Assembly: GCA_021555105.2 (NCBI GenBank)
Contig: CP134604.1
Coordinates: 3,774,001 to 3,838,000, forward strand
Direction of reading: 5' to 3'
Length of the DNA: 64,000 nt
Source: Thalassospiraceae bacterium LMO-JJ14
Lineage (GTDB): Bacteria > Pseudomonadota > Alphaproteobacteria > Rhodospirillales > Casp-alpha2
Part shown: positions 40,247-41,858 of the stretch, piece after piece
How the letters are laid out: every line of letters starts with the position of its first letter
How positions within the stretch are numbered: position 1 is the stretch's first letter
Notes under the pieces: generated by a model
What the model saw: only the letters and a program-made list of their open reading frames with translations
What the model was told of the DNA's origin: nothing
The model's database searches: none
Program-made: the position numbers and the translations under genes

Positions 40247-41074
40247 TTACTGTATGGTTTCGGCGGTATTGCCGCGCAGAAAACGCCGGCGTTGGCGCAG
40301 GGGATTGTCGCCCGTGGCGCTGTGCCATGTGCAGCGGTTATCCCAAACCAGCGTATCGCCCATGCGCCACTGATGGCGCGCCTGATAGCGGGACTGTCCG
40401 CACCACTCATACACTTCGTCCAGCAAGGCGACGGCCTCTTCATCCGGCATGCCGAGTATCCCGACCGTATGGATGGGGTTGACGAAAATCGATTCACGTC
40501 CCGTTTCCGGATGGCGGCGGATGACCGGATGATTGATCAGCGGCTTATCCCGGTCAGCGGGATCCAGTCGGTTTTGCACGTCATTGCTGCGCCCCCCGAA
40601 GCGGAATGTGCCGCGTAAGCCCTGCAAACGTTCCTTGAGTTCAGCCGGCATCTCCTCCAGCGCCAGATACATATTGGCGAACAGCGTGTCGCCCCCCTCG
40701 TCCGGGATTTCCAGCGGGTGCAACATGGTCGCCTTTGCCGGAACTTCGAGATAACACATATCCGAATGCCAGCCGAGACCGCGGCGGGATTCGAATTCGT
40801 CGACCTCGCCCTCGGCGTTGAGATTAGTCATGACGATCAGCTCGTCGATTTCCGGATGCCGGTATTTCTTCGTCACATGAATCAACGGCGTGCCGAACAC
40901 GCTTTCAAAGCGGACCATCTGTGCGGGTGTTAATTCCCGGTCCCGGAACACCAGCACACAGTGTTCCAGAAACGCCCGGTTGATGGCTTCGCGCGCATCC
41001 GCATCAAGCGGCTGCGAAATATCGATGCCCCGGACTTCGGCCAGCAGCGGTTCACCAAGCTTTACAATTTCCAT
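40247..41074 (-). CDS. TauD/TfdA-family Fe(II)/2-oxoglutarate dioxygenase
   Basis: Non-haem iron oxygenase of the taurine/2,4-D dioxygenase family. The facial triad is His105-x-Asp107 in GLGWHSDMCY and His253 in RCTWHSA, with Arg266 or Arg269 in RRRFLRG for 2-oxoglutarate (numbered from the first of two in-frame ATGs). The N-terminal AEVRGIDISQPLD and VLVFRDREL stretches are also typical. Family substrates are sulfonates, aryloxyalkanoates or other acids; none can be assigned. Two start codons 6 bp apart (41080 and 41074) lie within a tandem repeat. The second has AGG at the better spacing of 8 nt and is preferred. Confidence 0.88.
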   Translation of the reverse strand: MEIVKLGEPLLAEVRGIDISQPLDADAREAINRAFLEHCVLVFRDRELTPAQMVRFESVFGTPLIHVTKKYRHPEIDELIVMTNLNAEGEVDEFESRRGLGWHSDMCYLEVPAKATMLHPLEIPDEGGDTLFANMYLALEEMPAELKERLQGLRGTFRFGGRSNDVQNRLDPADRDKPLINHPVIRRHPETGRESIFVNPIHTVGILGMPDEEAVALLDEVYEWCGQSRYQARHQWRMGDTLVWDNRCTWHSATGDNPLRQRRRFLRGNTAETIQ

Positions 41075-41150
41075 CGTCATAACCTGCCATCGTCATAACC
41101 TGCCATCGTCATAACCTGCCATCGTCATAACCTGCCATCGTCATAACCTG
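41071..41150. repeat. five perfect copies of a 16-bp tandem repeat spanning the dioxygenase start
   Basis: CCATCGTCATAACCTG is repeated exactly five times without interruption. Read with the dioxygenase gene (minus strand) each unit is CAGGTTATGACGATGG, which carries an AGG ribosome-site element and two ATG codons. The last unit supplies the actual start codon. Because 16 is not a multiple of three, ATGs in successive units fall in different frames. A frame begun in the unit two steps upstream stops at a TGA overlapping the gene's first ATG. Copy number may vary by slippage. Confidence 0.95.
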
Positions 41151-41336
41151 TATGTATCAAGGATTTTGGCCGATCACCAGCGCCGGAAAGACCCACATTG
41201 CGGCTTAATTCGAAAAACGAACGCGCGTGCAGAGACAAGCATGGCGCCCACAATCACCGTCAATCCGGCAAGAGCATTCGGACATCTCCAGCAAACGGAT
41301 CAAATTCAACCGAAAGACCGCTGCCGCCTGTTAGGG

Positions 41337-41744
41337 TCAGGGGTAGGTTGTCGTCGCCGTCGCCGAAGCGATGGAGCCACTGAAAAAGCCGTCGCTCTCC
41401 TTGGCTTTGACCGACCACTCATAATCATGCGAACCGCTCGGCGGGCAAGGGCTCTTATACGTGAAAGCCCCCGGCTGGATAACATCCTGCCCGGTATATT
41501 CGATGGTTCCCCCGCCATGAGCGTATGACGGTTTATCAAGGTCGGTCAGCGTAAACGACAGGAACTTGGTTCCCGCAGGCACGTTTTTCAGCGTGAACGT
41601 CGGGTTGGGAACGGTATTCGGATTCCCCGTCGTGCACAGCGGAATATCGCCCCATTCGAAGGCCAGGGAGAAATCATCCGCCGCCGCATGCTACACCCCT
41701 GTCAGGGATACCAGAACGCTCAAGACACCCAGAGTTTTAAGCAT
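41337..41744 (-). pseudogene. PEBP-family (YbhB-like) secreted protein interrupted by a UAG in the signal peptide
   Basis: ATG 41744, with GGAG 7 nt upstream, opens a signal peptide (MLKTLGVLSVLVSLTGV) that runs into TAG at 41693-41691. The same frame then continues as HAAADDFSLAFEWGDIPLC and on to a TGA at 41337. The body resembles the phosphatidylethanolamine-binding/YbhB family: FTLTDLDKPSYAHGGGTIEY, then YKSPCPPSGSHDYEWSVKA. With a sense codon at position 18 the protein would be 135 aa with an Ala-x-Ala-type cleavage site. No usable in-frame start lies between the stop and the domain. I read it as a recent nonsense mutation (CAG to TAG would suffice); a sequencing error is the other explanation. 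Confidence 0.75.
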
Positions 41745-41858
41745 GTCGTGTCTCCTATACTTTGGTTTCTGGCCCATCGTTTCGCATATTCAATTCCCCT
41801 ACAAGTATAATATCTTTAGCCTGAGCGGACGACACGGCCCGAAACACGAGGAACCCCC

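Follow-up and report, generated by a model that had tools for sequence, protein, structure and literature searches.

Mycobacterial MIRUs, for example at senX3-regX3, are inserted at start codons, and an internal ORF of the element is coupled to the gene by a −4 nt spacing while the gene stays expressed (PMC12548453). Where MIRUs stand in tandem, the make-up of the copies varies between strains (PMC4213456). In Moraxella catarrhalis, the (AGAT)n tract of uspA2 and the poly-G tract of uspA1 are located between promoter and start, and expression was shown experimentally to be graded with the copy number (PMC4679880). In marine Beggiatoaceae, TAACTGA heptamers form direct repeats that cover the ribosome-binding region and end beside start codons (PMC4679880). 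In phase variation of the Haemophilus lic2A type the repeat number selects the in-frame start among several, with differing expression levels (PMC4235727).

A repeat at the start of a gene is also found in the 64,000-nucleotide stretch of the LMO-JJ14 genome analysed here (the window), where five perfect 16-bp tandem copies of CAGGTTATGACGATGG occupy 41071-41150 of the minus strand, with no partial copy on either flank. Each unit carries an AGG and two ATGs, as the earlier note had described, and the ATGs are spaced by 6 nt. Tandem Repeats Finder confirmed the repeat as the top-scoring array of the window (41071-41150, period 16, 5.0 copies, 100% matches, 0 indels), and a search for the exact 16-mer found no copy in the window besides these five. 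The features of the locus are, from upstream to downstream:

41151-41858, minus strand: new upstream DNA with no match in the genus; the sister genomes have GNAT, BON-domain and PhyH genes there.
41135-41150, minus strand: unit 5, the most upstream, with an AGG, the first ATG at 41144 and the second at 41138; opens the chain of units 5, 3 and 1.
41119-41134, minus strand: unit 4; opens the chain of units 4 and 2, which ends out of frame within the gene.
41103-41118, minus strand: unit 3; the unit-5 frame stops here in an ATGA overlap.
41087-41102, minus strand: unit 2; its frame closes at a TGA 16 nt beyond the array.
41071-41086, minus strand: unit 1; provides the AGG and the start of the dioxygenase gene; the unit-3 frame stops here.
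41072-41074, minus strand: second ATG of unit 1, at the orthology boundary with the sister genomes G005 and G002; AGG spacing 8 nt.
40247-41080, minus strand: intact TauD/TfdA-type dioxygenase gene (PF02668), 277 aa from the first ATG and 275 aa from the second.

In bacterial VNTRs or minisatellites, a unit of at least ~10 bp is repeated head to tail in nearly identical copies, and the array has this make-up. When up to three mismatches were allowed, the 16-mer gave 6 matches in the window compared with a mean of 0.37 in window shuffles, which excludes an origin of the array by chance. A repeat protein was considered as a product and rejected, since no frame on either strand stays open across the array: the minus-strand frames are closed by TGA, those of the plus strand by TAA.

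To follow the reading frames, every ATG was translated in arrays ranging from one to six copies. The starts of units 5, 4 and 3 each encode MTMAGYDDGRL, and the closing TGA overlaps the first ATG of the next unit but one. The start of unit 2 encodes the 14-residue MTMAGYDDGNCKAW, whose out-of-frame stop is reached 16 nt into the gene, and the frame of the dioxygenase itself begins in unit 1. ATGA overlaps link units 5, 3 and 1 into one chain; units 4 and 2 make up another, which ends out of frame. The self-terminating frames, the overlaps, the 5-3-1 chain and the different parity of even and odd units had all been proposed in the earlier note, together with the claim that a change in copy number leaves the gene unbroken, and at the level of the sequence the translations bear out each of these points. 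As the sequence TGACGATG shows, only 2 nt separate the closing TGA from the second ATG of the unit that receives it, which would make reinitiation possible at either ATG of that unit. Predicted pairing with the anti-SD is weak to moderate, amounting to −3.2 kcal/mol at unit 5 and −6.2 kcal/mol at units 4 to 1. Termination-reinitiation at sites where stop and start codons overlap is established in bacteria (PMC6728339), and a contribution of units 5 and 3 by reinitiation is plausible, provided that the transcript covers both.

With these frames the locus can be set beside the described systems. The array resembles MIRUs in that the TGA of the unit-3 frame and the first ATG of unit 1 share an ATGA; this likeness is one of sequence only, and with the second ATG the spacing becomes +2 nt. 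The statement that no example of this geometry had been described was therefore too strong, because in MIRUs an overlap of −4 nt couples a repeat ORF to the start of a gene (PMC12548453). However, MIRUs are 53-77 bp long, dispersed and apparently mobile, whereas the array has a 16-bp unit at a single locus and is not a dispersed element, and its coupling skips alternate units, unlike that of MIRUs. The leader repeats of Moraxella belong to surface-protein genes and have units without start codon or ribosome-binding site, while the units of the array carry both. With the Beggiatoaceae heptamers the array shares a unit length that is not a multiple of 3 and repeats at the ribosome-binding region, but those heptamers occur as 169 sets in one genome and have neither SD character nor an ATG, in contrast to the single locus seen here. 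In the Haemophilus lic2A type the repeat comes after the starts, and most frames leave the gene off, whereas the array has starts in every repeat and its gene always keeps one. A short unit with a binding site and a start of its own, and with a frame that closes two units downstream, was not found described in the open-access literature. Judged by its sequence, the array appears to be a variant of known repeat types, with a function that is at most putative.

The downstream gene matches the PF02668 profile over nearly its whole protein (E 6.6e-63, residues 10-269), as expected of a whole-protein family member. Comparison with the sister orthologues gave dN of ~0.14 and dS of ~1.3, and on sequence grounds the gene is judged intact and constrained. 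The earlier note placed the start of the dioxygenase in the last unit, and indeed unit 1 opens its frame, but the exact codon needs correction. Orthology with the two sister genomes (80-81% protein identity) ends exactly at 41074, i.e. at the second ATG of unit 1, and the G002 orthologue begins at the equivalent codon (MDIIKL...). Moreover, the AGG of unit 1 is 8 nt from the second ATG but only 2 nt from the first, which is too close. Because of the orthology boundary and the better AGG spacing, the second ATG (41074-41072) is the likelier start, and a protein of 275 aa is more likely than one of 277 aa.

In both sister genomes the orthologue is the middle gene of a PhyH-TauD-TauD operon; in G002 it starts 5 nt past the PhyH stop, and in both genomes a second TauD-type gene follows. 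The LMO-JJ14 genome keeps only the middle one of the three clustered dioxygenase genes and has no orthologue of PhyH or of the second TauD, the best matches being paralogues at 33% and 35%, and as judged from this comparison the operon partners have been lost in the LMO-JJ14 lineage. At the sister loci (L109 and L110) the conserved cluster adjoins a metal-binding-protein-like gene whose histidine-rich repeats vary in length, with an 18-bp period at L109 11897-11999.

Upstream of unit 1, 772 bases have no relative in the genus. A PEBP-like ORF is located here at 41337-41744 of the window (minus strand), with a good ribosome-binding site and a weak PF01161 match just under the cut-off; it has an in-frame TAG at codon 18 (41693-41691), within an apparent signal peptide, and is probably a pseudogene or the product of a sequencing error. 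Beyond it lies a divergent mandelate-racemase-type gene that is common to LMO-JJ14 and its sisters, indicating that the DNA between this gene and the dioxygenase was replaced, or lost, in one lineage. The sisters share no conserved leader, and synteny breaks at the dioxygenase gene. Since orthology ends at the second ATG and the DNA upstream is unrelated, the array falls precisely on the junction of the two. Scans of the region for promoters (sigma-70 consensus sites only) and terminators found nothing.

In the 3.89-Mb genome of LMO-JJ14, a search for the 16-mer with up to two mismatches returned only three isolated matches outside the array, which is unique there. A pattern of two units, with up to three mismatches allowed, occurred in 0 of 296 other genomes of the order, and there was no exact match among the IMG/VR viral contigs. 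The four closest orthologues (59-81% identical) lack the array and have unrelated leaders, so that the repeat is not retained at orthologous genes. Other tandem arrays were surveyed in a 744-kb sample of the LMO-JJ14 genome that included the window, and this yielded a second perfect non-coding array with a non-triplet period (13 bp × 3.5 copies). The latter (ACAATGCCCTGTT; L133 18968-19013, corresponding to C1:468968-469013 of the genome) is followed, after ~90 bp, by a 161-aa ORF, a putative YbaK/ProX-type deacylase. In a Porticoccaceae MAG (L064 2304-2377), the last copy of an imperfect 14-bp array (CTATAAACCCCGAA, 5.3 copies) runs into the ATG of a 340-aa ORF, as an independent case of a repeat meeting a start codon. 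Arrays that meet start codons are not confined to the LMO-JJ14 dioxygenase locus, and the 13-bp and 14-bp arrays indicate that such arrays arise without a special system.

The array, its frames and uniqueness, the orthology boundary at the second ATG and the lost partners are directly established. They are best explained by a young, local minisatellite expansion over the ribosome-binding site and start, which is tolerated and would have modest, unselected effects as a leader; we give this reading a probability of about 0.7. A recent local origin follows from the five identical copies and from their absence elsewhere in the genome, in the 296 genomes of the order and, as an exact match, in IMG/VR. 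A 16-bp segment with the ribosome-binding site and start codon would have been duplicated locally at a dioxygenase gene with lost partners and new 5' DNA, either alongside the upstream rearrangement or later, and further copies may have arisen by replication slippage or unequal recombination. The term "slippage-prone" used in the earlier note is plausible given five identical copies. The array would be tolerated because any copy number keeps one intact AGG and start beside the gene. Translation most likely begins at the second ATG of unit 1. If the transcript begins upstream of the array, the upstream copies would act as a short leader at which some ribosomes initiate; those from units 5 and 3 would end within a few nucleotides of the next start of their chain and may reinitiate, while those from units 4 and 2 would terminate inside the gene and be lost. 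Overall, expression would probably be changed only modestly and, we infer, without selection for this effect. As a counterpoint, a maintained functional array would also give identical copies and exact placement over the start, and the parity of the frames and that of the opening of the start point the same way.

The latter parity arises from RNA folding. GUUAUGAC pairs with another copy of itself through six Watson-Crick and two G-U pairs, and two units are predicted to form an 8-bp hairpin (−8.6 kcal/mol). With an even copy number all units could pair, while an odd number leaves one free, so that the last start would be more open at odd numbers. Indeed, the predicted cost of opening it is ~2-4 kcal/mol higher at even copy numbers with every flank choice tried (a wider opening window was also run). 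In the model, folding gives another effect of parity, which acts the same way as that of the reading frame. However, 40% of arrays built from shuffled units were as stable and 12% had an equally large parity swing, so the predicted swing is within the range of shuffled units and is no proof of selection. A notable RNA structure was likewise rejected, since the z of −2.6 against dinucleotide shuffles of the region is ordinary when compared with shuffled-unit arrays and mostly reflects periodicity.

Both parities enter the reading that the array tunes initiation, as the earlier note had suggested; by this reading slippage would change the copy number and set the supply of ribosomes to the gene through the chained ATGA starts and the pairing of units; odd units would be productive and even ones not, and pairing would close the last start at even copy numbers. 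The frames verified for one to six copies, the predicted difference in opening cost, the established reinitiation at ATGA overlaps and the graded leader repeats of uspA2 are consistent with such tuning. By contrast, the repeat is absent from the four closest orthologues and from the 296 genomes of the order, shuffled units often fold as stably and sometimes swing as much, no promoter was located, and a metabolic enzyme is an unusual contingency gene. Tuned expression is possible but unsupported, and we consider this reading unlikely. A self-duplicating start cassette, in which every 16-bp unit would comprise a weak but complete ribosome-binding site with its start, and the gain or loss of a unit would flip both frame parity and last-start pairing to give a reversible two-level setting of the enzyme that is never off, is quite improbable.

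An array of operators is similarly doubtful. Here a repressor or activator would bind over the start region to the imperfect palindrome GTTATGAC, which recurs every 16 bp; identical, evenly spaced sites with a quasi-palindromic core would suit such a protein, but a spacing of 16 bp, roughly one and a half turns of the helix, places adjacent sites on opposite faces, the repeats extend into the coding sequence, and the genome has no single or double sites at other promoters, its further matches being the three isolated ones with two mismatches. That the real copy number is not five, or that the array is partly a sequencing artefact, is very improbable: the stop in the adjacent PEBP-like ORF is of a kind that base-calling errors might cause, but the genome is a single contig, at 80 bp the array can usually be spanned even by short reads, and five identical copies with clean edges are atypical of an artefact.

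If the copy number varies and sets expression by parity, the array would provide a compact means of reversible expression at two levels, neither of which is off. Even if neutral, it shows that a duplicated start region can persist, with the gene translatable at every copy number, at a gene that is without its former operon partners.
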